Shown here: positions 49,850-64,000 of the stretch, in pieces
Layout of the letters: each line of letters opens with the position of its first letter
How positions within the stretch are numbered: the first letter of the stretch is position 1
From: Salinibacter grassmerensis
GTDB taxonomy: Bacteria; Bacteroidota; Rhodothermia; Rhodothermales; Salinibacteraceae
Reading direction: 5' to 3'
DNA length: 64,000 nt
NCBI RefSeq assembly: GCF_947077765.1
Contig: NZ_CAMTTF010000003.1
Coordinates: forward strand, 310,001 to 374,000
Translations under genes and position numbers: made by a program
Notes under the pieces: model-generated
What the model saw: only the letters and a program-made list of their open reading frames with translations
The model's database searches: none
What the model was told of the DNA's origin: nothing

Positions 49850-51253
49850 CTACTGGTCTTGCTGTGTCTCCGTGTTCGCGCCCGGAAACTCCGCGTCTTC
49901 GGCGTACTCCTGTCCCAGTTGGCGAAGGGCCTCCTGCGCAGTGCGGCGACGCTCGTCGATCAGGTCCTGCTTCTGGTCCCGGTCCGCGCGGGCCCGGAGC
50001 GGATCCACGACCTCGGCCCGGAGCACAATCAGAAGCTCCTGTTCTGTAACGTTGGTGGTCTCGGAGCCGAAGATGTACCGCAGCCCGAAGAACCAGCCCG
50101 GCAGGTCTTTGAGCACCGGGACGCCGCTCCGTCTGGTCGTCTTCTGTGTGGAGATGAGCCCCCCAATGACGGTGGCCTCGTTGTCGAGAAGAAGAACCTG
50201 CGTGCTGGCCTGATTGCGGTTGATGATCGGCCCGGAGCCCGACGGCTGACTGTTCGAGTCTTCTACGTCTACGTTCAGGTGAATGAAGTCCAGAACGGGC
50301 GCCCCCGACGAATCGGCCACGGGCTGACTGAGCAGCGTGGGGGTCACGTCGATGATGATGCCGGTCGAGAAGAACTCCGTAACGGTATTCCCCGCAAAGT
50401 CGGTAGTCTGGATCGGCACGTCCTGACCAATTTGAATCTCGCCCTGCTCTCCGCTCTGCACGGTCACCTGTGGGTTCGCGACGGTGCGTCCCACATTGTC
50501 CTGTTCCAGGAGATTGAGGAACCGCCGGAACTGCGAGAGGGAAATTTGATCGGGCGCCTGCAGGATGTTGTCGACGCTCTCGAACAGGTTGTCCGTCCGA
50601 ACGGCAAAGTTCTGCCCCTGGCCGCCCGCGCCTCCTGCTCCGCCACCTGTCCCCCCTGCTCCGCCACCCGCGCCCCCTGTTCCACCACCGGCCCCTCCCT
50701 GACCGCCCGCACCGCCTCCCTGCGTGGAGCCCAGAATCTCATCCCACCGGAGCCCCCGGTTGCGGACCTTTGTGAGGTTCAGGTTGAAGAGGATGGCGTT
50801 GATCCGGATCTCCCGGGTGCCAAGGGTGGCGAGCGGCCCCTCACCGGACTGCTGCGGGGTTCCCGAAGACATCGACGAGGTGTCCTGCCTTGCCTCCTGC
50901 ACCAAAAAGACGTTGTCGGTCTCACGGTAGCTCAGGCCGTTGGCCTCCAACGCCCGTTGAAACGCATCGAAGTAGTACATTCCCGATACCGAGACGCCAA
51001 TCGGTGTCGTTCGGTCCTCCGGGTCGACGACGCGCTTGCCCACCTCGCGCTCAAAAATCGGATTGATGATCTCGATAAACTGGTCCAGCGAGGTCTCCTG
51101 GCCGAAAGACACCAGCAACTCGGGAGAAATGTTGGTGCGGGTGTTGCGGCGCTCCGGTCGTTCCTGGGCCTCAGCCGGCAGGCCCAGCCCCCCTCCCCAC
51201 AGCACGACGAGGAGGACCGACAGAACACACCGGAGGCGAGAAGGGCGGATCAT
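49850..51253 (-). CDS. pilQ: type IV pilus secretin (PilQ/GspD-like) with Gly-rich insert
   Basis: A 467-residue secretin with a signal peptide (ends GLPAEAQ). The N-domain includes 'ISPELLVSFGQETSLDQFIEIINPIFE' and 'MYYFDAFQRALEANGLSYRETDNVFLV'. A Gly/Ala-rich segment of about 35 residues follows at about 173-208. The secretin core shows 'VANPQVTVQSGEQGEIQIGQDVPIQT', 'LSQPVADSSGAPVLDFIHLNVDVEDS' and 'LLDNEATVIGGLISTQ'. It should form the outer-membrane pore through which the pilus passes. It is short compared with PilQ of about 700 residues because the AMIN domains are absent. It is last in the pilus gene run. Confidence 0.88.
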   Translation of the reverse strand: MIRPSRLRCVLSVLLVVLWGGGLGLPAEAQERPERRNTRTNISPELLVSFGQETSLDQFIEIINPIFEREVGKRVVDPEDRTTPIGVSVSGMYYFDAFQRALEANGLSYRETDNVFLVQEARQDTSSMSSGTPQQSGEGPLATLGTREIRINAILFNLNLTKVRNRGLRWDEILGSTQGGGAGGQGGAGGGTGGAGGGAGGTGGGAGGAGGQGQNFAVRTDNLFESVDNILQAPDQISLSQFRRFLNLLEQDNVGRTVANPQVTVQSGEQGEIQIGQDVPIQTTDFAGNTVTEFFSTGIIIDVTPTLLSQPVADSSGAPVLDFIHLNVDVEDSNSQPSGSGPIINRNQASTQVLLLDNEATVIGGLISTQKTTRRSGVPVLKDLPGWFFGLRYIFGSETTNVTEQELLIVLRAEVVDPLRARADRDQKQDLIDERRRTAQEALRQLGQEYAEDAEFPGANTETQQDQ

Positions 51254-51371
51254 GAATGTGGAGCGTCGGCGGTGCGAGAGGTCAAAAGGGAGAGGTGTAC
51301 CCGGTACAAGGGTGTCAGGGGTATCGGGGAGTTGTGGATTGGACTATTGGAGAGGAGAGCAAGGACCGTTC

Positions 51372-52364
51372 CTACGGATTCGTGGAAGACGCGGCGTCCG
51401 CGTCGCGGACCCGGAGAGGACTCTCTGAGCCCAGCGTACGCTCTACGCGGTCCACGATGCCACCCCGGTTCAGCCGCGCGACCACCCGGCCCTCCGACGG
51501 GCTCACCTCTGCGATGCGCCCCAGGTACACCCGGTCGCCCTCCCCCACCCGCTGAAGCCCGTCTCCGGTCTGGAAGACGGCCTTCCCATCCACAATGGAA
51601 AGCAGCTGTGCGGACTCGACGTTCAGGCGATCGTACTGGTTGGGCGGCACCTCCTCGAAGACAAGGGGATAAAACGGATTGATCTCGGGCGCGGGGTTGG
51701 GCACCACCGAGGACGGAAGTGGGGGACTGGTATTGTTTTTCGCCACGGGCAGCCGTTCGATCTCTCCTCCCTCAGAGGGCGACTGCGGGGCGGGCAGGCC
51801 CGTGGCGGCCCCGTAGATGGCCTCCACGTCCATGTCGAACGAGACGAGAACGTTCATCGTCGTGCGTCCGCTCTCCTCGTCGGTCTCTCGTTCTTCGAGG
51901 TAGTTCAGGCTCAAGCCGCGGATGCGGTAAAACGGCCGGTTGTTTTCAATCGTCCAGACAAACTGGTAAAGACTCGTGAAGTAGGCCTTTCCCGTTGCCT
52001 CGAACGAGTGGACGCTGTACCCGTCGCGCTCTTCAGATCCGGCCGACACGACGTCGAACTGCTGAAATCCGGTCTCCGTGAGTTCGGTGAGGTAGGACAC
52101 GATATCCGGGGACGAGATGGTTGCGGGGACCACTTTGTACTGGGTTCGCCACCGGCGACGAACGGTCTTGAGACGCGATTCTGCGTTGGCCCGGTCGGCA
52201 CGGAGGGATCGAATTTCCTCCTGCCCCTGCTTCTTGGCCTCAATCTTTTGCTCCAGCGACGCAATCGTGTCTTGTTGACGAAAGTACGTGAGGTAGGTGC
52301 CCGCTCCACACACGAGAACCAAGCAGGTGAGGAGCAAAGTCTGATTCGAATCGGGCCAGAACAT
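51372..52364 (-). CDS. PilO/PilP-like pilus assembly protein (apparent fusion)
   Basis: A 330-residue inner-membrane protein. One transmembrane helix (about residues 9-27) is followed by a coiled coil ('LEQKIEAKKQGQEEIRSLRADRANAESRLKT') and a PilO-like ferredoxin-fold part with 'FEATGKAYFTSLYQFVWTIENNRPFYRI'. After a proline-rich linker (about residues 215-240), the C-terminal 90 residues ('AQLLSIVDGKAVFQTGDGLQRVGEGDRVYLGRI') resemble the PilP/GspC beta domain that contacts the secretin. PilO and PilP are normally separate proteins. It would link the inner-membrane platform to PilQ. Confidence 0.7.
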   Translation of the reverse strand: MFWPDSNQTLLLTCLVLVCGAGTYLTYFRQQDTIASLEQKIEAKKQGQEEIRSLRADRANAESRLKTVRRRWRTQYKVVPATISSPDIVSYLTELTETGFQQFDVVSAGSEERDGYSVHSFEATGKAYFTSLYQFVWTIENNRPFYRIRGLSLNYLEERETDEESGRTTMNVLVSFDMDVEAIYGAATGLPAPQSPSEGGEIERLPVAKNNTSPPLPSSVVPNPAPEINPFYPLVFEEVPPNQYDRLNVESAQLLSIVDGKAVFQTGDGLQRVGEGDRVYLGRIAEVSPSEGRVVARLNRGGIVDRVERTLGSESPLRVRDADAASSTNP

Positions 52365-52412
52365 GAGGCGTCCACGTGGGCGAAAAGAGAGTGCGATCTG
52401 CTGGAATTCCTG

Positions 52413-54624
52413 TCAGACGGAGCGTTCCGGGTCTGATGGGTCGGACGAGGTCGACGCGGAGGCTTCGGTGGAGGCAGCCCCGTCGCCCCCGCCCGCCATT
52501 TTGAGCAGCCACGCCCCCTCTGGAAGGGTGCCGTTCATGTCCTGCAGCATCGAGAGTGCATTCCGCACCGAGCCGAACCGCCCGATGCCGACCCGATACC
52601 GACCATTTTCCGGGCTTTGTTGAACCTGCACCGGATAGGACTCCTCGCTGAGTCGCTCCCGGAACCGCCGCGCCGTCTCTTCGGCCGCCGCACTTTCCAG
52701 CACCGAGGCCACGACCACCGTCCAGATCGATGACGACGCGTCGTCTGTATCACGGCGGGCCTGCAGATCACCATTCGAGTCGGCCTTCTGTGGGGCAGTG
52801 CTCGCACTCGTATCGGGGTCGGCCTGAGCCGTGGCGGGCGCCTCAGCCGTCGTGGACGAGTCCGGTGCGGGGGCGTCCGGACCCATCTCCACCGCTTCTT
52901 CTCCGGCGGCCAACTGCTCGCCCCGCTCCTCCCGCCAGTACTCGATTGCCTTCGGCTTAGTAGTGTCTAGAGGAATCGTAAGCTCGAAGTCGTACAGCGA
53001 CACGTCCCGCGTTTCCGTGAACGTGAGTCCCAGGATGCTCCCGTCCAGTTGCTGTGCCAGCTGGACCACCTTCGACCGATCGTTGGACCGGCCGCGAACT
53101 GTAACTTCTGTTCCGGACTGCGGGCTCCACTGATCGATGGTGAGGCCGCGGATGTCGTTCATCTGCCCCGTGACGGTCGCGAGCCCGCTGCTCCACTTGT
53201 TGCTGCCGCGGAGGAGTGTGCCGACGGTCTTGTTCGCCTCAACGTATTCGGTCGTCATGGCCTGCATGCTGTCAATCCGCCGCTGAAGCGCCTGCCGATC
53301 CACTTGATCCACCTTCTGTTTAAGATTCTGCAACTCCGTGCGCCGTTCGCTGATGGTGCTCGCATTCGCGAAGTACAGCCATACGAACCCGAGTGTCGCG
53401 ATGGCAAGGAGCGTCAGCAGCGCGGGAACCGGCCATCCCACCGGGAGCCGCAGGCGACTGGGGACGTACTCCTTCGCCAGCAGGTTGACCGGCTGGAAGT
53501 ACGGCGCAAACGCGGCGTCGTCGAGCAGACGAAGCGCCGCGCCGGTGGCCCCGACGTACGCCTCGGCGTCGGTGTCGTCCCCGCCGGGCAGGTGCGACCG
53601 GAGCACGTGAAGCTCCGCCGTGGAGAAATACGACTTGAATGCACTTGCGAGCACCTCCTCGTCCTCCTCCGCAACGAGCATCAGGTGTTGCACCTGCCCC
53701 ATTCCGTACTCGTCCTGCAGAAGAAGGACGCGGCTACAGATGGTCTCGGCGGAGTCCTCCGCCGTTAGCTCGGGGAGGTGCTCGGACTGGCGGAGCGTGT
53801 TGCCTTCAATGAAGAGGACGAGCGTGTCCTCGGTGCCCGAGCGGACAAAAATGGTCTTTTCGGGCGTGCCGGGCGGCAGCTGGAGCACCGAACGGGCAAG
53901 CCCGAGGTAGAGGGACACCTCGGCGTCCAGCAGGCGCGTCTGCGGGGAGCGGGACAGGGTCTGATCCTGCATGGACTCGAGGGTCGACAGGACCGGACCG
54001 CCCGGCCGGGCAATGAGGGCCAGGACACGCTGGTATCCATCGCCCGTGCGATGCATCGGCACGAAGCCGACGCGCTCCTCATCCGCCTCCCCCTCATACT
54101 GCTCGCCCAACATGTCCAGGAGCGTAGAGCGGGAGGCCGGAAGGGGAAGTCCGTGCTCGGTTTCGTCAGCCTCGTCCTCGTCGGTCTCGTCCGGCGGCAG
54201 GCGAAGCTCCACGTCATCGATCTGCGACGTGGAGCTGCAAAAGGCGATCTCGGGGTCTTCGTACCCTCGCTCGGCGCATTCGTCCAGCAGGTTGTCGAGC
54301 TCCACCTGAAAGTTCCACACCTCGCCTCCGTCGTCGCCCCCAAGGGCCTCGCCCCCCCCCATCAATGTCGTCAAATTCCGACCCCATGAACATGTCGTCG
54401 CCCCCACCCCCCTCGTCGCCGAATTGGATGGTGACGTCTTCGGACTCCTCTTCCACGTCGGGCGTCATGTCGCCGGGCTCTTCGAAGGGAAGGTCCCCCT
54501 CGCGGACGTCCGACGAGCCCGACGACCATCGGAACTGGACGGTCGTCTCTTCTTCCGTGCGTTCCAGGAGCACGGCATGAAGGGCGTCCGCCGACACCAT
54601 GATGCCAAGGGCGTGTGTGCTCAT
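52413..54624 (-). CDS. PilM/PilN-like pilus assembly protein with C-terminal SPOR domain, interrupted by a frameshift
   Basis: Two frames overlap: 'MSTHALGIMVSADALHAVLL' starts at 54624, and the rest reads in another frame down to 52413. They join if the run of nine G (minus strand, 54352-54360) is read as eight, giving one 736-residue protein. Residues about 1-380 are PilM-like (actin-like, degenerate), about 397-418 a transmembrane helix with a following coiled coil (PilN-like), and about 440-560 a PilN-type domain. Residues about 630-708 are a SPOR domain ('SIWTVVVASVLESAAAEETARRFRERL' and 'RYRVGIGRFGSVRNALSMLQ'). SPOR domains bind peptidoglycan. PilM and PilN are normally separate and lack SPOR. 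The frameshift may be a sequencing error or phase variation. Confidence 0.7.
54352..54360 (-). repeat. poly-G9 tract inside the PilM/PilN-like gene
   Basis: Nine consecutive C on the plus strand (G on the coding strand), exactly where the reading frame changes. With eight G (or eleven) the frames join; with nine the product is cut short at about 136 residues. Confidence 0.85.
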
Positions 54625-54695
54625 CGGCTCAGAACAATCAGCAACTCAGAGTAAAGAAGGGAGCCCCAAGGCCCCGCGGCCGAGGGACGGCGGTT

Positions 54696-55970
54696 CTAGA
54701 ACAGGCGACGGAGGCGCTTCTTGTTGTTCGCGTAGTCCATCGCGTGCTCGGGCTTGATTTTCTTCTTCCGCACGAGGCGGTAGAGATCCTGCTCCAGCGT
54801 GGTCTGTCCCTGTTTCCCGCCCTCCCACATCATCTGGTACACCTCGCCCACGTTGTCATTTTTGATTGCCGCGCGGGCGGACGAGCCCACCCACAGCACC
54901 TCTTTCGCCATCTGGCGGCCGCCGCCCATCTTGGGGAGCAGCTGCTGCGAAATCACGCACCGTAGCACATCGGCGAGGCGGTGCCGTACGCGCTGCTGCT
55001 CTTCGGGGGGCACCTCCGCCACGATGCGGTCGATGGTCTCCATGGCCGAGGAGGTGTGGAGCGTGGAGAAGACCTTGTGGCCCGAGTCGGTGATTTCGAG
55101 GGCCGCCTGAATCGTCTCCGGGTCGCGCATCTCCCCGATAACGACGATGTCGGGGTCCTGGCGCAGGGCCTGCGTAATGCCGGCCTTGAAGGTCTCCACG
55201 TCTTTGCCGACCTCGCGGTGTCGCACGATGCACTTCTTCGGCTTGTGCATGTACTCCACCGGCTGGGCGATCACGACGACGTGGCCCGGGAAGTCCTCAT
55301 TATTCGCGTCGATGATGGCGTCGAGCGTGGTGCTTTTCCCCGACCCCGTGACGCCCGTGATGAGGGTGAGCCCATCCCGGACGTGCCGAAACATCATGCC
55401 CTTCTGAATTTTCTCGTGGAAGTTCAGGTCCTCCAGCGCAAACACCTCGTCGGTGATGGCGCGCATGTTGAGGGCGGCGTGGTCGTAATCCGAGTACGCC
55501 GTGGCCCGGAACCGGCGGGGCCGTCCGTCCTCGCCCGTGACGCTCTGCAACCGGTACGAGAAGTCCGCCGCCCCCTCGTTCAAGAGCTGCTTGGTCTGCT
55601 TCTCGTTGAGGAGATTGAGGACCAGGACATCGGTCTCCAGCGGGTCGTACGTGCCGAACGCGTCTTCTCGTCGCTTCTCACCGTCGACCCGATACCACAC
55701 GTTGCCGTCGCAGGCCCGGCCCCCAAGGTCCATGTCGCTGGCGTCCAGTTCCAGCGTCCGTTCAACGAACTGGTTCACGTGGTCTCGGAGGGCCCGCTCT
55801 CGTTTCGGCGAGAGCTTGGCCGTTTGCTCCGCAAGATACCGGAGCCGCCGTTGCCCCCGATATCCGTCGGGAATGGACTCAATGATGCGGGCACAGGCCT
55901 CTGACGGGGCCTCGTCGGCCCGGCTGTCGGACTCGGCAGTCGCCGCGGGGGAAGGGGGGACGTTTTCCAT
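54696..55970 (-). CDS. pilT: type IV pilus retraction ATPase PilT
   Basis: A 424-residue hexameric ATPase. Walker A is 'GVTGSGKSTTLDAIID'. The Asp-box region is around 'VIAQPVEYMHKPKKCIVRHREVG', Walker B 'PDIVVIGEMRDPETI' and the His box 'GHKVFSTLHTSSAMETIDRIV'. The last residues 'YANNKKRLRRLF' follow the PilT-type C-terminus. It powers pilus retraction (twitching). It is longer than usual (about 345-370) because of an N-terminal extension of about 70 residues. The ATG at 55970 is chosen; a start at 56006 is possible. Confidence 0.92.
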   Translation of the reverse strand: MENVPPSPAATAESDSRADEAPSEACARIIESIPDGYRGQRRLRYLAEQTAKLSPKRERALRDHVNQFVERTLELDASDMDLGGRACDGNVWYRVDGEKRREDAFGTYDPLETDVLVLNLLNEKQTKQLLNEGAADFSYRLQSVTGEDGRPRRFRATAYSDYDHAALNMRAITDEVFALEDLNFHEKIQKGMMFRHVRDGLTLITGVTGSGKSTTLDAIIDANNEDFPGHVVVIAQPVEYMHKPKKCIVRHREVGKDVETFKAGITQALRQDPDIVVIGEMRDPETIQAALEITDSGHKVFSTLHTSSAMETIDRIVAEVPPEEQQRVRHRLADVLRCVISQQLLPKMGGGRQMAKEVLWVGSSARAAIKNDNVGEVYQMMWEGGKQGQTTLEQDLYRLVRKKKIKPEHAMDYANNKKRLRRLF

Positions 55971-56182
55971 GATCACGTAGCTCTCAGAGTGAATCTGTGG
56001 ACCCACACCCGATCGGATGGTGGGGATTTAAGTTACCACAAGATTCGCGCCGACGGTCCAAGGGGACGAGGGCCGGAAGGCATACGAGGAGGAAGCGGCC
56101 TGTGAGGACCTGTATACCCTCCGTGCCCCTGTCCTTTCGCTGAGGGACTACGATTACGAAATGAATCCTTCCCCCGAGAAGA

Positions 56183-57184
56183 CTACGTTGCGCCCGAGTT
56201 CGGGTCCGTCAGCGCGACCTCGAAAACCTGATCACTGAAATCCGGGACGTCACCATAGTCTTCAAGGTCGCGGAGACCATCTGGGGTCATTCGCCAACCG
56301 TTTCCACCGTACGTCTTTCGTCTTCTGCTCCAGTAGGAGTTATCGGGGTACCCGTTTTCCTTGATGTCCCATAACTGGGCCTCCGAGAAGACCCGCTGGT
56401 CCTCGAAGGACACCCGCCAGCCATCCGACGAGCCGATGGTCGTTTCCTCCACCATGCCGTACGGCGCCTCCCGCATCGTATTCAGCTTGTCCACGTCTTG
56501 CTTGAAGGACCGCTGGACGTGATCGTAGTCGCCGGGAAAGTCGACCGACTCGTCTCCTTCGTGGCTGCAGTTCTTGTCCACCGCCAGGATAAAGTTGAGC
56601 CGCGTGCCCGACTCGATGGTTTTCTCATAGCTCGACGAGGCATCGTTCCGATTGTTGCCCGGCGGAAATACCATTTCGGGGTCCGGCTGATTCTTCGGCT
56701 TGGTGCCTGGCTTCACCCGCTTCAGGTATACCGCCGAGCAGTAGCCGGCCATCGACTGCTCGAAGGTAACATTGAGCTGGCTGGGCGTCTCCACCGTCGG
56801 GGCCTTCATCGTGTTGTTTGCGTATCCCCCAAGCCGGTAGTCCACGGACGAATCCGCCACCGAGAAATGGCTGACCGACACGGCCGTATACGCCGAGGAA
56901 CTGATCTGTTTGAGCCACGCCTTGTACGTTCCGCCCTCATATTCTCCCTGGATCGTGTCAACCTCCGAGACGACCTGCCCAACTTCTTTATCCTCATCGT
57001 CAACCTTGTGGGCCTCCGATAATACCGAATTGTACCCGGACCGGGCAATCTGACGAGCAATCACTTTTCCTTGGCGGAACGACTGCCGCTCTCTCGTATC
57101 GGCGGAGGTTTGGTTACCCTGAAACGCAAGGATAGTCACGGCTCCTACGACCGATAAGCTAAGAAGTAGACTGAATTTCCCCAT
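56183..57184 (-). CDS. pilin-like protein of the pilus locus, large (unknown)
   Basis: A 333-residue protein with one N-terminal hydrophobic segment ('FSLLLSLSVVGAVTILAFQG', about residues 4-23), then a helical stretch and a long hydrophilic domain. A Cys at 'GYCSAVYLKRV' and another at 'DKNCSHEGDES' may pair. It has no GFxxxE prepilin cleavage site. By place and shape it may be a minor pilin or PilX/PilY-like tip protein, but no family can be named. It lies between pilT and two similar small genes. Confidence 0.65.
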   Translation of the reverse strand: MGKFSLLLSLSVVGAVTILAFQGNQTSADTRERQSFRQGKVIARQIARSGYNSVLSEAHKVDDEDKEVGQVVSEVDTIQGEYEGGTYKAWLKQISSSAYTAVSVSHFSVADSSVDYRLGGYANNTMKAPTVETPSQLNVTFEQSMAGYCSAVYLKRVKPGTKPKNQPDPEMVFPPGNNRNDASSSYEKTIESGTRLNFILAVDKNCSHEGDESVDFPGDYDHVQRSFKQDVDKLNTMREAPYGMVEETTIGSSDGWRVSFEDQRVFSEAQLWDIKENGYPDNSYWSRRRKTYGGNGWRMTPDGLRDLEDYGDVPDFSDQVFEVALTDPNSGAT

Positions 57185-57337
57185 GGCGAACAGGTGTTGT
57201 TTGTGACGAGGCTAGTTTGATTGCCCTACGGCCTGATCCAGGGCGTTCGGTCGACCGGTGCTTCGGATTCTCCCATTTTCTTCTCCGTTCTCGTGCGAGT
57301 GCAGCGGAAGGGGAGTGGGTTCGTGCGGGAGTACCGA

Positions 57338-58165
57338 TCACCAGGGGCGTCCTTTGCCCCCAGTACAGTTATTGGACCCTTTGCTCCCTCCGGATGCCAT
57401 GTACTTACATGCCGCCGCACACCCGAATGGCGTGCCCGTGGGATCCGTCAACTGCTTCCAGTTCCCCCCCGTGCAGCTCGTCGCATTCTTTGGAACGTTG
57501 ATCACACTGGAGTTCGACTGATCCCGGACGAGTAAAACCGACCCAACGTGGGTGGCCTGTGGAAAGGTCTGCGTATTCTGGAACGGGGATACGACGGAAA
57601 ACCGGACCCGGACACTGTGAACTTGGTCCGCATTCGCGTCCGGATTCGGGACAGGGTCAGCGTTCTTGTCAAGCAGATCAATCTGAAAGTACCCGAGGGC
57701 AGAGGGGCTCACGCCCTTCGCCCCAGACCACGAAGACCAGCTCCCCGTGCCCATTTCTTTTCTCCGCTTCTTCCGGGTCAGCCCGTACACAGGCTTGTCC
57801 GCCCCATCAATCATGCGCGTCCCCTCCTGACTCACCTCGTAGCGAGTCGCGATTCGATACTCTTTGTTGCTTGAAGTGGTGGAGTCGCGGTAGAAGGTGA
57901 ACTGAGTGGTGATGTCGGTGCCCCCACCGCCCTCGGTGTATACTGGGTTCTCAAACGGAGCGCGCTCTCCTTCCTCAAAGTTCTCCCCCATTCGCTCAAT
58001 GTCCCTCTCCAACCACGTCGCGAAGGTCTGCGTGAGCTCCCCCATCCGATTCCGCGACATTTCCGCCACACTGTTCTGCGTTGCCCGAGACTGGATGGAC
58101 AGGAGAATCAGGGTCGTCATGAGGGCGATGACCGTTGCCGTCAAGTTGTCGTAGAGAAACTGCAT
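57338..58165 (-). CDS. pilin-like protein of the pilus locus (PilW-like?)
   Basis: A 275-residue protein. The N-terminus is 'MQFLYDNLTATVIALMTTLILLSIQSRATQ', a single hydrophobic helix with a long amphipathic continuation ('MGELTQTFATWLERDIERMGENF'), which resembles PilW/GspJ-type minor pilins. It has no leader peptide and no canonical cleavage motif. The C-terminal domain has four cysteines ('NATSCTGGNW', 'FGCAAACKYM', 'SNNCTGGKG'). It ends near the upstream genes and has the same strand and spacing as its neighbours. Function is unknown. Confidence 0.65.
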   Translation of the reverse strand: MQFLYDNLTATVIALMTTLILLSIQSRATQNSVAEMSRNRMGELTQTFATWLERDIERMGENFEEGERAPFENPVYTEGGGGTDITTQFTFYRDSTTSSNKEYRIATRYEVSQEGTRMIDGADKPVYGLTRKKRRKEMGTGSWSSWSGAKGVSPSALGYFQIDLLDKNADPVPNPDANADQVHSVRVRFSVVSPFQNTQTFPQATHVGSVLLVRDQSNSSVINVPKNATSCTGGNWKQLTDPTGTPFGCAAACKYMASGGSKGSNNCTGGKGRPW

Positions 58166-58217
58166 GGCAAACGTCGGCTCTGTGAGCAGAGACGGATGTC
58201 GTACACCGAGGCCGCTC

Positions 58218-58730
58218 TTAGTAGTAGCTCAGCACCTCCGAAAATCGGATCGGCTCCGTCAGAAAGGGATCGTCCCCCGCGTCCTGGACGTAGACCACGA
58301 CTTCTTTCCGGAACGTGGGCCCCGGCACCTCCTGCATGCTCGCGTCTAGGTAGCGGACCTCGACCTCCACCGTGAAGCCCATGTCGAACTCTGGGGTCTC
58401 GAAGGTCTCGGTACTAGGCACCATTTCGTGGAAGTCCCCCACCGAATCACAAGGTTGATCGCCCCCAAAAGCCTGACAGTCCATTCCTCCCCCGAATGAG
58501 CTTCTGAATTTTGCAGGGTTGGTGATCCGATTCTTGGTTCCTCCCACGGTCGCCTCATCGAAGGCCCGAGCGCGAATTACCTCCATCGTCTGCATGCCTA
58601 CCCCGAGGGCCATCTGTTCCATCTCCGACCGGATCACCTGCCGCTGCTTCTGCAGCTCGGTCTTCATCTGGTTGAAGTTGAAAAACGTGGCCATCATGAG
58701 GGCCAAGAGGGCCAGAAGCGTCTGTTGCAC
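58218..58730 (-). CDS. pilin-like protein of the pilus locus, small
   Basis: A 170-residue protein from a GTG start. 'MQQTLLALLALMMATFFNFNQMKTELQKQ' is a hydrophobic helix at the very N-terminus without leader or GFxxxE. The rest is beta-rich ('FDMGFTVEVEVRYLDASMQEVPG') with a Cys pair ('MDCQAFGGDQPCDSV'). It resembles a minor (pseudo)pilin in layout, but the family cannot be fixed. It is first of three such genes after pilB. Confidence 0.65.
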   Translation of the reverse strand: MQQTLLALLALMMATFFNFNQMKTELQKQRQVIRSEMEQMALGVGMQTMEVIRARAFDEATVGGTKNRITNPAKFRSSFGGGMDCQAFGGDQPCDSVGDFHEMVPSTETFETPEFDMGFTVEVEVRYLDASMQEVPGPTFRKEVVVYVQDAGDDPFLTEPIRFSEVLSYY

Positions 58731-58832
58731 GACGACCGATTTGGATTATGAGAAGCCGAGTGTTTGTCTTGCTTTGCTCTCCGTTTCCGTTCCGCCCGCG
58801 CTGGCCCCCGCGGCTCGGGGCCAGACGAGTCC

Positions 58833-61136
58833 CTAGGTCGCCACCACCCGAATCATCTCCTCTACGGAGGTTTCGCCGTCCAGAATGGACTCGCGGGCGG
58901 ACGCCTGCAGCGACCGCATGCCGTCCTCCTGCTCCGCGTGCTCCCGGATTGAACTCTCATCGACGACCCCCTCCGCCTCAACGATCATGTGGCGGATGGG
59001 CTCGGTGAGGTACAGGGCCTCCGCAATGGCCCGCCGCCCGTCGTACCCCGTGCCGCCGCACTGGCTGCAGCCGCCCTTGTCGTCCGCGGCATAGAACGTC
59101 CCCGTGTTCACCTCGTCCTCCGAGAAGCCCAGTTGACGCAACTTCACGGCATCCGGGTTCGTGATCTCGCGCTTACAGTTCGGGCAGAGCGTGCGGATCA
59201 GCCGCTGGGCCACCACCAGGTTGATGGCGTAGGCGATGAGGAAGGGCTCGATGTCCATCTTGTAGAGGCGGCTCACGGCACTCGGCGCGTCGTTGGTGTG
59301 GAGCGTCGAGAACGTGAGGTGCCCCGTGTTGGCGAGCTTAATCGCGAGCTCGGCTGTCTCTTTATCCCGCATCTCTCCCACCATCACCGTGTCCGGGTCG
59401 TGGCGCAGGATGGAGCGAAGGGCGTCTTTGAGCCGCAGCTTGTCGCTCAGCTTAATCTGCCGCGCCCCTTCGATGATGTACTCGACCGGGTCCTCAATCG
59501 TGAGCACATTCTCCCCCGGCCCAATCACGCGGTGCAGCGCGGCCACCAGCGTGGTGCTCTTCCCGGACCCCGTCGGCCCCGTTAGGATTACCATGCCGTT
59601 GGGCTGTTGGATGGCGTGCTCGAACCGCTTGAGCGCCCGCGGCCCCAGGCCCAGCTTGTTGAGGTTCGTGATGACCTTGCGGTCGTCCAGAACACGGATG
59701 ACGACACTTTCTGAGTCGATGTCCTGGTTGGAACTGGCGATCGGCATGATGGACACCCGGTACCGGATGCGGGTGCCGTCCACGTCGCGCTGGATGAAGC
59801 CGTCCTGGGCAGCGTCGCTCTCGAAGCGATCGACGCTCATCGCGTTGTCCTTAATCACCGACAACAGGGCCTCCGGGTGGACGCGGTCCTCCGTGTGCCA
59901 ATGGTTGAGACGTCCGTCGACTCGGAAGTGGATTTCGACCTCCTTATCGGAGTTGGGGTAGATGTGGATGTCGGACGCCCCCTCCCGCACCGCCTCCACG
60001 AGGGTCGCCTCGAACAGGTTGATGAGGGTCGACCGATTGATCTCCTCCTCGAGTTTCTCTTCGTCGACGAGGTCTTCTTCCTCCTCGAAGTTCTGTCCGA
60101 GGTCGACGGTCGACTCCTCGTCGATCCGCTCCAGGTACTCGTTGTCCTTCGGAAAGGCCTCCGTCAGCAGTTCGTTGACGACCGATTTGGGAGCATACTG
60201 CAGCTCAAACCGGCTCAGGTCAAGCGACCGGGCCACCCGGTGCACCTCGGGGCGCATCGGGTCGTGGGTGATGAGGATGACCTTCCGCCGCCCTTCCGCA
60301 TGCTGCATGTGATGGGGCACGATCCCCAACTCAAAAAGCTGCTCCTGTTGGTCCTCGGTAAAGGCATCGACCGTCGAGCGGACGAAGTCAAGGTCCGGCT
60401 CTTGGGCCTCGACGTCCGCCACCGAGAACGCGTAGATGCGGGCCGCCCGCTCGTAGACGACGTCCTCGTCTACCCCATCCTGCTGGGCCAGGACCCGCCA
60501 GAGGGCGAGGTCCGGCGCTTCCTCCTCGCGGTGGGCCTGTGCCGCCTCCACCGCCCCTACGCTCACGACGCCCCGCCGCAGCAGCATCTCCACCACCCGG
60601 TCGTTCGTGCCGACCGAGGAGTTCGAAGCCATGCGGGAGGCCGCCTCGTCGATTAGCTCGGTATCAATCTCAGCCTCGAGCTCGTCGAGCGCCTCCTCGG
60701 GGCTTGGCAGATCAGGGCCGCCATTCGGGATCGGATCCTCTCCGGACAGGCCATCAGGGTCGGGCTCTGGGGGCAACGCGTCCTCTGCATCGGACGCCGC
60801 GTCGGTCCCTTCGAGAGGCGGAGAGCCGTCTCCGAGCGGCTCGGAGAAGGCGTCTCCAGACTCTGCGTCCGCGGAGGATTGATCGTCCGACGCTGCCGCC
60901 CGGTCGGCCTTTCGAGCTTCGAATGGCCGATTGTTCGGCGAGAACGGCGGCACCGCAAAGCGCGGAGAGTCCACCGGCCCCAGCGTCAGGACGTCCGGAC
61001 GAGCCTTTCCCATCAGAGAGGAGGAGGCGTCCGGATTCGTCCCTTCGTTCCCTCGACCCTTGGCACGAGATGAAGCCCCGTCCCCGCGCGTCTCCCCGAA
61101 GGAAGCACTCTGATCAATGTCTTTTGAGTCGCTCAC
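58833..61136 (-). CDS. pilB: type IV pilus extension ATPase PilB (GspE family)
   Basis: A 767-residue ATPase from a GTG start. The N-terminal half is acidic and low in order, followed by a GspE/PilB N-terminal (MshEN-like) domain ('RRGVVSVGAVEAAQAHREEEAPDLALWRVLAQQ'). The motor domain has Walker A 'GPTGSGKSTTLVAAL' (about 519-527), 'TIEDPVEYIIEGARQIKL', Walker B 'PDTVMVGEMRDKETAEL' and the His box 'HLTFSTLHTNDAPSAVSRL'. The zinc site is 'LCPNCKREI' and 'CSQCGGTGYDGRRAI'. It powers pilus extension. It is longer than typical PilB (about 560) because of the acidic N-terminus. Confidence 0.94.
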   Translation of the reverse strand: MSDSKDIDQSASFGETRGDGASSRAKGRGNEGTNPDASSSLMGKARPDVLTLGPVDSPRFAVPPFSPNNRPFEARKADRAAASDDQSSADAESGDAFSEPLGDGSPPLEGTDAASDAEDALPPEPDPDGLSGEDPIPNGGPDLPSPEEALDELEAEIDTELIDEAASRMASNSSVGTNDRVVEMLLRRGVVSVGAVEAAQAHREEEAPDLALWRVLAQQDGVDEDVVYERAARIYAFSVADVEAQEPDLDFVRSTVDAFTEDQQEQLFELGIVPHHMQHAEGRRKVILITHDPMRPEVHRVARSLDLSRFELQYAPKSVVNELLTEAFPKDNEYLERIDEESTVDLGQNFEEEEDLVDEEKLEEEINRSTLINLFEATLVEAVREGASDIHIYPNSDKEVEIHFRVDGRLNHWHTEDRVHPEALLSVIKDNAMSVDRFESDAAQDGFIQRDVDGTRIRYRVSIMPIASSNQDIDSESVVIRVLDDRKVITNLNKLGLGPRALKRFEHAIQQPNGMVILTGPTGSGKSTTLVAALHRVIGPGENVLTIEDPVEYIIEGARQIKLSDKLRLKDALRSILRHDPDTVMVGEMRDKETAELAIKLANTGHLTFSTLHTNDAPSAVSRLYKMDIEPFLIAYAINLVVAQRLIRTLCPNCKREITNPDAVKLRQLGFSEDEVNTGTFYAADDKGGCSQCGGTGYDGRRAIAEALYLTEPIRHMIVEAEGVVDESSIREHAEQEDGMRSLQASARESILDGETSVEEMIRVVAT

Positions 61137-61192
61137 GACGACAATCCAAAATCAAGAACGCAGCCAATTCAGGGTGCCTCGACCGTACTCCC

Positions 61193-62548
61193 CTACATGC
61201 CCATCATGTCGGCCTGCGACGGCTGGATAAAGGCCATCTCTGCCGAGAGAATGGTGAGGAACAGAACTCCGAGGGCGATGATGATCGAGACCCCCGTCTG
61301 GATGCTCTCCACCGCCGCGTCGAGGCTCAACTCGGTCTCCTGCTCGTAGTAGTCGGCCATCTGGCGGGCGCTCTCACGGACGCTGCCCGTCTCGGCCCCG
61401 CTCTTGAAGCGCGTGATGGCCATCGACGTAAACACCCCGCTGGCCTTGAGCGCCTGCACGAGGCTTGCCCCCTGCGCCGTCATCATCGGGATGGTGACGT
61501 TCCGGATGCGGTACTCCATGTACTTGTTGCCGCAGGCCTCGGCCGCGATCCGGATCACCCGTAGGTTGTCTCCGGCCCCCGAGTAGAGAATGGAAAAGAC
61601 CCGACAGAAAATCTCGATGTTGATCTTGTGGAGCAGCTTCCCGATGAGCGGAACCTTGATCATGTACTTGTGCAGGTAAAACTTCCCCTGCTCCGTACGA
61701 GCCCATGCCACGAACGCCAGGAGCGGCCCCACCGTCCCCAGTGAGACCCACACCCAGTATTGGTCTAACCAGGCCGCCATGTCGAGCGAGAAGCTCGTGA
61801 GCGGCGGCATCGTCACGTCCATGCCCTCGAACAGCCCCGCCGTGGCCGGCACGATGTACCAGATGTACCAGACCATCGCCCCGATCATGGCGACCGTGGT
61901 CACCGCCGGCATGATCATGGCGCTCCGCACCCGTGAACTAAATTCGTCTTTGCGCTCCAGGAAGCGGGCCGTGGCCTCGTAGATCTCAGCCATGTTCCCG
62001 CTCTTGGAGGCGATGCCCAGCATGTACGCCGTGAACTTGCCGAGCTTGTCACGGTGCTTGTTGAACGCCTTCTCGGCGTTCATCCCGCCCTTCAGGTCGG
62101 AGTTGAGGTCGCGGATCACCTGCTGGAGGCTCTTCGACGACACATCGTTCACCAGCATCTCCAGCACCTCGTCGAACGGCAGGTTCTCCCGGAGGAGATT
62201 TGCCGCCAGCCGCACGAACATGATGAGGTCGTCCTGCGGCGGCGAGAACTCGAAGTCGAACCACTTCTTCTGCACCTTCACGACCTCCAGCCCCATGTTT
62301 TCGAGGGCCTCCTCCACCTCTTCAGGCGAGAAGGCCTTCTGCTCCCCCGTCTTCACGTTGCCGTTCGGATGGCGCACCTTGTAGTAGAAGGTGCGGCGCT
62401 TCTTCAGGTCCGACGGCTTGAACCCGTGCTCGTCCGACAGGTCCTCCACCTTCTCGCGGGCCTTGCTCTTGGAGGAGGCCATAACGGTGCCCTGGACCGA
62501 CTGGCCGCCGGCCGCCACACCCTGAAACCGGTATTCGCGAGTAGCCAT
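61193..62548 (-). CDS. pilC: type IV pilus inner-membrane platform protein PilC (GspF family)
   Basis: A 451-residue protein with two GspF/T2SSF domains. Domain 1 covers about residues 128-250 ('FVRLAANLLRENLPFDEVLEML') and domain 2 about 330-450 ('FCRVFSILYSGAGDNLRVIRIAAEACGN'). Three hydrophobic helices are at about residues 212-235, 258-280 and 420-440. The N-terminus 'REYRFQGVAAGGQSVQGTVMASSK' matches PilC. It forms the platform that transmits ATPase rotation to the pilus base. It leads the pilus gene run on the minus strand. Confidence 0.93.
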   Translation of the reverse strand: MATREYRFQGVAAGGQSVQGTVMASSKSKAREKVEDLSDEHGFKPSDLKKRRTFYYKVRHPNGNVKTGEQKAFSPEEVEEALENMGLEVVKVQKKWFDFEFSPPQDDLIMFVRLAANLLRENLPFDEVLEMLVNDVSSKSLQQVIRDLNSDLKGGMNAEKAFNKHRDKLGKFTAYMLGIASKSGNMAEIYEATARFLERKDEFSSRVRSAMIMPAVTTVAMIGAMVWYIWYIVPATAGLFEGMDVTMPPLTSFSLDMAAWLDQYWVWVSLGTVGPLLAFVAWARTEQGKFYLHKYMIKVPLIGKLLHKINIEIFCRVFSILYSGAGDNLRVIRIAAEACGNKYMEYRIRNVTIPMMTAQGASLVQALKASGVFTSMAITRFKSGAETGSVRESARQMADYYEQETELSLDAAVESIQTGVSIIIALGVLFLTILSAEMAFIQPSQADMMGM

Positions 62549-62896: not shown

Positions 62897-64000
62897 CTAC
62901 CGACTTCGACGCGCCTTCTCGATTACAGAAGAGTCGCGCACTCCAATGTACCCCTGTGTCCAGTATCGCGGAGAAAGAGTATTTCGTTCGACCGAGTTCA
63001 TAAAAGCTATGCGGCGCTCTGTCACCGTAGTTAAATCGCGAAGGCTACTCCCGACCACCAGTACGGCACTCACAAGGAGAGCACAGAAAATCGCGTGAGC
63101 ACGAAAAGAGCAGGCGTCATTAGAAAGGTTTCTTGAGAACTGGTATCGCCCCCACACCCATCCCCCTACTAGAGCAAGAAGCACTTGACTCAATGGGGCC
63201 AGTATGAGACCGCTTACCATCGAATGCGCCACTCCAGCCAATACAGCCGCCGCAAAACTCACCTGTATACAGCTCGATGTCTTCCCATTGCACTCAATGA
63301 TGCTCCTCTCTTGCAGTAGCCAAGACCAAATTCCCCAGATGGTGAGACTGGCCATGATGATGGTAGACGGGATGCCCCACTCTCCCAGCCACTGCATGAC
63401 CGCATTGTGCGGACTCGCCCCGGTCGCATAGTGATACGGAGGCCAGGCAAAGTGCATTGGTCCAGCTCCCAGAAAGGGGTGCGCCCAGGCCATTTCCAAG
63501 CATGTTCGCCAATATTGGAGACGTTGGGAATTATGACTCACATCAGTGAACCTATCAGCTACCGGAGGAACCGAATCGGCAGAAAACAAGAGGTAGTATA
63601 ACCCAAGCCCCAGAACCAGCCCCACTCCCTGAATAAGGATCCATTTTTTAGCCCCAGAACGGAAGAGAATGCCTACTCCTACCGCAGCAGTGGTCATTGC
63701 CAGAAGGGTTCCACGGACATCGGATGCGAAAATCAATGCCCACCACAGTATCACCAGCGCAAATATCGCCGCTTTGCTGAATCGCCATCGTCCGAAATAA
63801 CCTAACGCTCCACTCGCAAGGAGTGGAAGAGTCAGTGTCTGATACTGATTAAAGATGCGGACATTGGCGAAATTAGTTGGCCCGTCCGGCCAGGGATTAG
63901 CATTGGAGACGATCAGGTACTTAGCGTACCCGGCGGAGAAGTATACAGCGTACATCATCGCACTGACGACTACAGTACCCAGAATCATTTTCTCGGCTCG
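62897..64000 (-). CDS. O-antigen ligase/polymerase-like membrane protein, N-terminus cut by window edge
   Basis: At least 363 residues. The frame remains open through the window end, so an ATG at 63988 may be internal. About nine hydrophobic segments are visible. The Wzy_C/O-antigen ligase signature is 'RLQYWRTCLEMAWAHPFLGAGP', followed by 'ATGASPHNAVMQWLGEWGI' (the family's 'HN..l....e.Gi.g' region). It should polymerise or ligate surface polysaccharide at the inner membrane. Base composition is less GC-rich than the pilus genes, a weak hint of separate origin, as is common for polysaccharide loci. Confidence 0.85.
   Translation of the reverse strand, partial: RAEKMILGTVVVSAMMYAVYFSAGYAKYLIVSNANPWPDGPTNFANVRIFNQYQTLTLPLLASGALGYFGRWRFSKAAIFALVILWWALIFASDVRGTLLAMTTAAVGVGILFRSGAKKWILIQGVGLVLGLGLYYLLFSADSVPPVADRFTDVSHNSQRLQYWRTCLEMAWAHPFLGAGPMHFAWPPYHYATGASPHNAVMQWLGEWGIPSTIIMASLTIWGIWSWLLQERSIIECNGKTSSCIQVSFAAAVLAGVAHSMVSGLILAPLSQVLLALVGGWVWGRYQFSRNLSNDACSFRAHAIFCALLVSAVLVVGSSLRDLTTVTERRIAFMNSVERNTLSPRYWTQGYIGVRDSSVIEKARRSR

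Follow-up and report, generated by a model that had tools for sequence, protein, structure and literature searches.

Leaderless Pilins in a Type IV Pilus-Like System of Salinibacter grassmerensis and Relatives in the FCB Group

We identified a type IV pilus-like system in Salinibacter grassmerensis, in a 64,000-nucleotide stretch of its genome (positions 310,001 to 374,000 of contig NZ_CAMTTF010000003.1, assembly GCF_947077765.1; hereafter the window) and in the sequence just beyond it. A minus-strand run at 49,850-62,548 of the window encodes PilC, PilB, three pilin-like proteins, PilT, a PilM-PilN-SPOR protein, a PilO-type protein and a secretin; the major pilin gene (~64,616-65,065, minus strand; 149 aa, MGQQQLLLLVLSTVIVGLATVAGIQAF...), an orthologue of the pilin family found in relatives, lies 0.6 kb past the window edge. 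The system resembles a type IV pilus yet fails two family-defining features, the leader and the A24 peptidase. We consider it likely that it belongs to a type IV pilus class of the FCB group (here, Bacteroidota broadly defined plus adjoining phyla) with “born mature” pilins, a class that can do without prepilin peptidase/N-methyltransferase and mostly lacks it. We also think it fairly likely that this class does without prepilin maturation throughout the superphylum, all of its pilins, major and minor, being leaderless with an MG(Q)QQ-type start and losing at most the initiator methionine. Maturation by prepilin peptidase, which cleaves the leader and N-methylates the pilin, is taken as a step that defines type IV filaments, and docking of the subunits is taken to depend on Glu5.

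The Pilins Start Without a Leader

The major pilin opens directly as MGQQQLLLLVLS..., and the start is near-constant across its family, MGQQQLLL(L/I)(V/I)LG; the family was recognised from a small open reading frame (ORF) adjoining pilC in one relative (L063). Start statistics were taken from 173 distinct major pilins, of which 155 begin with MGQQQ and 168 have an ATG start codon; a lysine or arginine occurs within the first six residues of one, and 172 have no aspartate or glutamate at positions 4-10. Among 64 sequences M1, G2, Q5, L7 and G17 are invariant. The Gly(-1)/Glu(+5) pattern that marks a class III leader is missing from these pilins. Reading back from the start, an in-frame stop is reached after a median of 4 codons (173 sequences), with no alternative start codon before it in 166 of the 173, and a Shine-Dalgarno-like motif stands ahead of 107 (62%, against a background of 9%); together, the stops, the missing alternative starts and the Shine-Dalgarno-like motifs indicate that there is no hidden leader. 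A longer upstream start, adding a leader to the pilin, was considered and is ruled out by the nearby stops. Two variants of the start were seen: a divergent paralogue at L127:10520-10885 begins MANKELLL and has charged residues unlike all others, and a second short MGQQQ-like ORF of 65-71 aa, probably a remnant or paralogue, is found elsewhere in the S. grassmerensis genome (G000:C3:612630-612791).

Judging from sequence and fold model, the major pilin is likely to be a type IV pilin, because the model, the profile register and the position beside pilC in dozens of genomes, taken together, point the same way. The AlphaFold2 (AF2) model of the orthologue from S. altiplanensis (predicted local distance difference test score, pLDDT, 85.7) consists of a helix at residues 3-54 followed by a beta sheet. 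When it was compared with known structures by VIA-align, 16 of the 18 top rows were type IV pilins or pseudopilins; the best, PilA4 (Z 8.8 over 113 residues), places model residue 2 on mature residue 1, and PilE places model residues 3-4 there, so that overall residues 2-4 of the model superpose on residue 1 of mature pilins. The pilin profile gave weak matches to PDB sequences, the best being Geobacter PilA, PilA5 and PilE, in a register about three residues longer than the mature pilins; an NCBIfam search with the major pilin returned nothing.

The three minor pilin-like genes had no Pfam match in a protein scan and were assigned from their positions and N-termini, which are kept in relatives. 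They occupy the PilV/GspI position (58,218-58,730; start (V/M)QQTLLALLALMM, no leader), the PilW/GspJ position (57,338-58,165; start MQFLYDN / MQFLYDNLTATVIALM) and the PilX/GspK position (56,183-57,184; start MGKFSLLLSLS / MGKFSLLLSLSVVGAV), all on the minus strand, and each passes from its methionine straight into a transmembrane helix. V and X types of relatives typically have 3-7 residues ahead of the hydrophobic window, and residue 2 of the X type is glycine in 31 of 32 relatives. In the W type, chain position 6 is acidic in 32 of 44 relatives; this position becomes +5, the place of Glu5, if the methionine is counted as the residue before the cut (-1). The X-like ORFs of three relatives (L053, L055, and L059) are very large (572-850 aa) and contain no Pfam domain; their products are possible tip adhesins.

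It could be argued that the pilins do undergo cleavage, by a membrane peptidase unrelated to A24 that trims MG, MGQ or MGQQQ, since their first five residues are conserved more than a plain anchor would need, and a non-homologous enzyme, Gcp16, has been put forward as the prepilin peptidase of the mitochondrial type II secretion system (T2SS; PMC8134430). The mitochondrial T2SS of some protists indeed lacks a GspO homologue, but its GspG keeps a polar leader, a processing site and Glu+5 (PMC8134430), whereas in the pilins described here the cleavage site itself is gone. At most three to five residues could be removed from them, without any Gly(-1)/Glu(+5) site; no cleavage motif recurs among the minor pilins, and the conserved cluster includes no peptidase gene. 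We therefore regard such trimming as quite unlikely, and prefer pilins that are not cleaved.

Prepilin Peptidase Is Usually Absent

No A24 prepilin peptidase was found in the S. grassmerensis genome with PF01478, even at E≤10, a profile that detected A24 in 12 of 14 control genomes. Likewise, none was found in four genomes of the genus with either PF01478 or a profile built from the phylum's own A24 enzymes (the latter detects A24 enzymes with E values as low as 1e-70), and the S. grassmerensis genome has no canonical N-methyl prepilins (PF07963). The major pilin is present at E≤1e-4 in 88 of 247 genomes of the phylum; A24 was undetected by either profile in 78 of the 88 and detected in the other 10. 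All 10 of the latter genomes also encode canonical N-methyl pilins, and in two of them (G231 and G219) these lie about 1 kb from A24, in a locus separate from the cluster described here. These genomes serve as an internal control, showing that A24 pairs with ordinary prepilins and not with this system.

That a prepilin peptidase is present but was missed, through a gap in the assembly or extreme divergence, and that the pilins are ordinary, seems to us highly improbable. The assembly is a draft of 19 contigs (estimated to be 99.7% complete), and the search is not perfectly sensitive, as PF01478 yields no A24 at E≤1e-3 in some genomes of the phylum that do have N-methyl pilins. However, the enzyme would have to be overlooked with two profiles in each of the four genomes of the genus and in those 78 pilin-bearing genomes, and the pilins offer no leader or site for A24 to cut, in a genome that lacks N-methyl prepilins as well.

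A Conserved Gene Cluster Across Several Phyla

A scan of public genomes yielded at least 241 relatives of the system. The best 80 of these come from Bacteroidota (Rhodothermia, Balneolia, Ignavibacteria, and Kryptonia), KSB1, Cloacimonadota, Latescibacterota, Calditrichota and Neomarinimicrobiota, and the order pilin-PilC-PilB-V-W-X-PilT-MN-O-secretin recurs over these phyla, with the order of the minor pilins partly rearranged; such recurrence is far above chance. The PilC proteins of 85 loci match one another at 338 bits or more, as compared to about 70 bits to a canonical PilC encoded in one of the same genomes, showing that the class is coherent and distinct. One genome (G179) has a second copy of the system (L105), in which the PilM-PilN gene is split over two frames.

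The genes for the motor and the pore, which the first-pass annotation had placed in one minus-strand run with the three pilin-like genes, were recovered there by profile matches. They encode the PilC-type inner-membrane platform (61,193-62,548; 451 aa; PF00482/T2SSF, E 5e-30), the PilB-type assembly ATPase (58,833-61,136; 767 aa; PF00437/T2SSE, E 2.6e-98; Walker A at 520, GEMRD at 587, and two CxxC motifs), the PilT-type retraction ATPase (54,696-56,006; 436 aa; T2SSE, E 7.8e-35; Walker A at 218 and GEMRD at 291) and the secretin (49,850-51,253; 467 aa; PF00263, E 4.5e-33), all on the minus strand. The catalytic motifs of PilB and PilT are intact. PilB, PilC, and PilT do not reach the equivalog cut-offs of NCBIfam: PilT scores 309 bits with TIGR01420, for a cut-off of 319, and PilB scores 390 bits with GspE and 369 bits with PilB, both below cut-off. 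In several relatives, for example L090 (7502-11017) and L126 (12026-15646), PilB carries an N-terminal extension of 600-700 aa before the MshEN and ATPase domains.

The slightly higher GspE score of PilB, together with a PilM-PilN fusion that is GspL-like, raises the question of whether the machine is a T2SS-like secretion system with a short pseudopilus instead of a retractile pilus; the minor pilins also stand in I/J/K order, as in T2SS. To our knowledge, T2SS have no PilT, whereas PilT with intact motifs is found in nearly every locus of the class, and the INLLP motif and the PilO and PilN profile matches (see below) indicate a type IVa pilus (T4aP). A T2SS would also bring GspO and a GspG with a cleavable leader, neither of which is found here. 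A parallel can be drawn with the “T2SS” of Cytophaga hutchinsonii (CHU_3190s; PMC5553014), likewise from Bacteroidota and with PilM/N/O/P-like inner-membrane proteins, secretin, ATPase and platform; this “T2SS” has been viewed as a secretion system derived from T4aP (PMC6668835). Unlike the clusters described here, however, the C. hutchinsonii cluster has a Peptidase_A24 (CHU_3197) and a GspG-type major pseudopilin (PMC5553014). We consider a T2SS-like secretion machine unlikely, and identification of the locus as a T2SS proper was dropped, given the presence of PilT and the absence of A24 and of an N-methyl GspG. This agrees with the first-pass annotation, in which a standard T2SS with separate genes would have spoken against its proposal: PilT is present, and PilM and PilN are fused.

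The PilM-PilN-SPOR and PilO-Type Proteins

The PilM-PilN fusion protein with a C-terminal SPOR domain (52,413-54,407, minus strand; 664 aa) comprises an actin-like region (residues ~28-300), an INLLP-like motif (~307), a transmembrane segment with coiled coil (~326-345), a ferredoxin-like domain (422-479) and the SPOR domain (562-638). The N-terminal half has an actin-like fold in the AF2 model, closest to PilM (2ych, a PilM-PilN complex; Z 16.8 over 260 residues; Foldseek against 5eou, E 2e-8). The PilN domain is supported by a match of the family profile to Myxococcus PilN (3jc8_Na; E 1.9e-11) and by superposition of model residues 403-480 on the periplasmic domain of XcpY (GspL; Z 11.0, root-mean-square deviation 2.0 Å). 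INLLP is the short motif through which PilN normally binds PilM, and many family members retain it within the fused chain, as would fit a genuine fusion of the two. GspL of type II secretion already unites PilM-like and PilN-like domains.

The SPOR domain (PF05036; cut-off 21 bits) scored 23.2 bits in the genome scan and 19.6 bits, just below the cut-off, in the protein scan, with higher scores, over the cut-off, in proteins of relatives; elements of the beta-alpha-beta-beta-alpha-beta fold are seen at its residues in the AF2 model (pLDDT ~60). Thus, the PilM/N-like gene ending in a SPOR domain, as first described, holds up. The same C-terminus bears SPOR in Salinibacter, L060 and the KSB1 locus L175, and a triple LysM in the Neomarinimicrobiota loci L162 and L177 (E 1e-27 and 1e-23); the PilM-PilN proteins of Cloacimonadota carry tetratricopeptide repeats. 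The PilO-type proteins of L162 and L177 also bear LysM.

The PilO-type protein (51,372-52,364, minus strand; 330 aa) was assigned by profile in its PilO part: PF04350 is matched by 12 of 29 family members (best E 1.1e-8), and the family profile matches the PilO structure 3jc8_Oa with E 0.0014. Its C-terminal domain (NPFYPL...GDxVYLGxL...) occupies the place of PilP or GspC-HR.

According to the first-pass annotation, the notable feature of the locus would be a compact basal body whose alignment complex carries a SPOR domain that ties it to peptidoglycan. We give this proposal about an even chance, and it is compatible with pilins that are born mature. A pilus machine with PilM-PilN-SPOR is indeed found, and the occurrence of SPOR or LysM on the same periplasmic C-terminus in separate lineages strengthens the idea of a peptidoglycan anchor; their repeated gain points to a general need for cell-wall anchoring of the alignment complex. 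However, many relatives have PilM-PilN proteins of 510-590 aa without a SPOR/LysM-type module, so that SPOR, which is predicted to bind denuded glycan, is an add-on and not part of the core; the PilP part of the proposed body is putative. Nor are the fusions a peculiarity of this locus, as had been suggested: PilM-PilN and PilO-containing proteins are common to all relatives and are thus a trait of the family. The SPOR fusion by itself was dropped as the finding, leaderless pilins without a peptidase being more unusual.

A Model for Assembly Without Prepilin Maturation

We propose that translation of the pilins starts at a methionine one to three residues ahead of the ordinary mature residue 1; prepilin peptidase would be unnecessary, since there is no leader to cleave. 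The Sec route would insert the pilins into the inner membrane N-in/C-out, and their hydrophobic helix, left uncleaved, would anchor them; methionine aminopeptidase may trim the methionine from MG... chains, and N-methylation would not take place. PilB and PilC would polymerise the pilins, and PilC/PilB should be able to raise the chain into the helix with nothing removed, because just one to three residues precede normal position 1. PilT would reverse the polymerisation (retraction), the secretin would serve as the exit, and PilM-PilN-SPOR would link the ring on the cytoplasmic side with PilO and with denuded peptidoglycan. Possible roles are adhesion, motility and DNA uptake; ComEC is encoded in the S. 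grassmerensis genome.

Several points weigh against this interpretation. Foldseek gave no significant match with the pilin model, and the Pfam and PDB sequence matches of the major pilin are weak. In the wider scan for the pilin, A24 was found in 15 of 50 genomes, mostly outside Bacteroidota and including all five Cloacimonadota tested (the other 35 have no detectable A24). The C-terminal domain of the PilO-type protein, searched in isolation, had no sequence match to PilP; of the PilO/P-like fusion reported in the first-pass annotation, the PilO half is thus supported and the PilP half is not. Lastly, filament formation, the true N-terminus, retraction and function are all deduced from sequences and models.

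With T4aP the system shares PilB, PilC, PilT, PilM, PilN, PilO, secretin, minor pilins of V/W/X type and a major subunit with a pilin fold. It differs in having no PilD, no class III leader and no Glu5 in the major pilin, in the fusion of PilM and PilN and the extra C-terminal domain of PilO, and in a cluster order that is kept across phyla. Prepilin peptidase was counted in the ancestral core in a survey of the superfamily (PMC6668835). The loci of MSHA pili lack one, as here, but differ in that genomes with MSHA always have one elsewhere (PMC6668835). In our literature search, which left preprints and most subscription journals outside its scope, no report of leaderless pilins or of this pilin family was found.

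If the proposed model is true, neither the leader and its enzyme nor Glu5 is intrinsically required by the polymerisation machine, and these loci offer a naturally occurring way to probe the roles of the leader and Glu5. It would account for annotation pipelines overlooking pili in these phyla, and would mean that relatives of Bacteroidota, known chiefly for gliding and the type IX secretion system (T9SS), have a large, uncharacterised group of surface filaments as well.

Neighbouring Genes

A gene for a Wzy_C O-antigen-ligase-type protein (491 aa; PF04932, E 9.4e-16) separates the major pilin gene from pilC, all three on one strand; it occupies 62,897-64,000 (minus strand), and its ORF continues to ~64,372, past the 64-kb window. 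The protein is a candidate pilin glycan ligase and may decorate the pilin. A Wzy_C gene is found in the same setting in one relative (L050).

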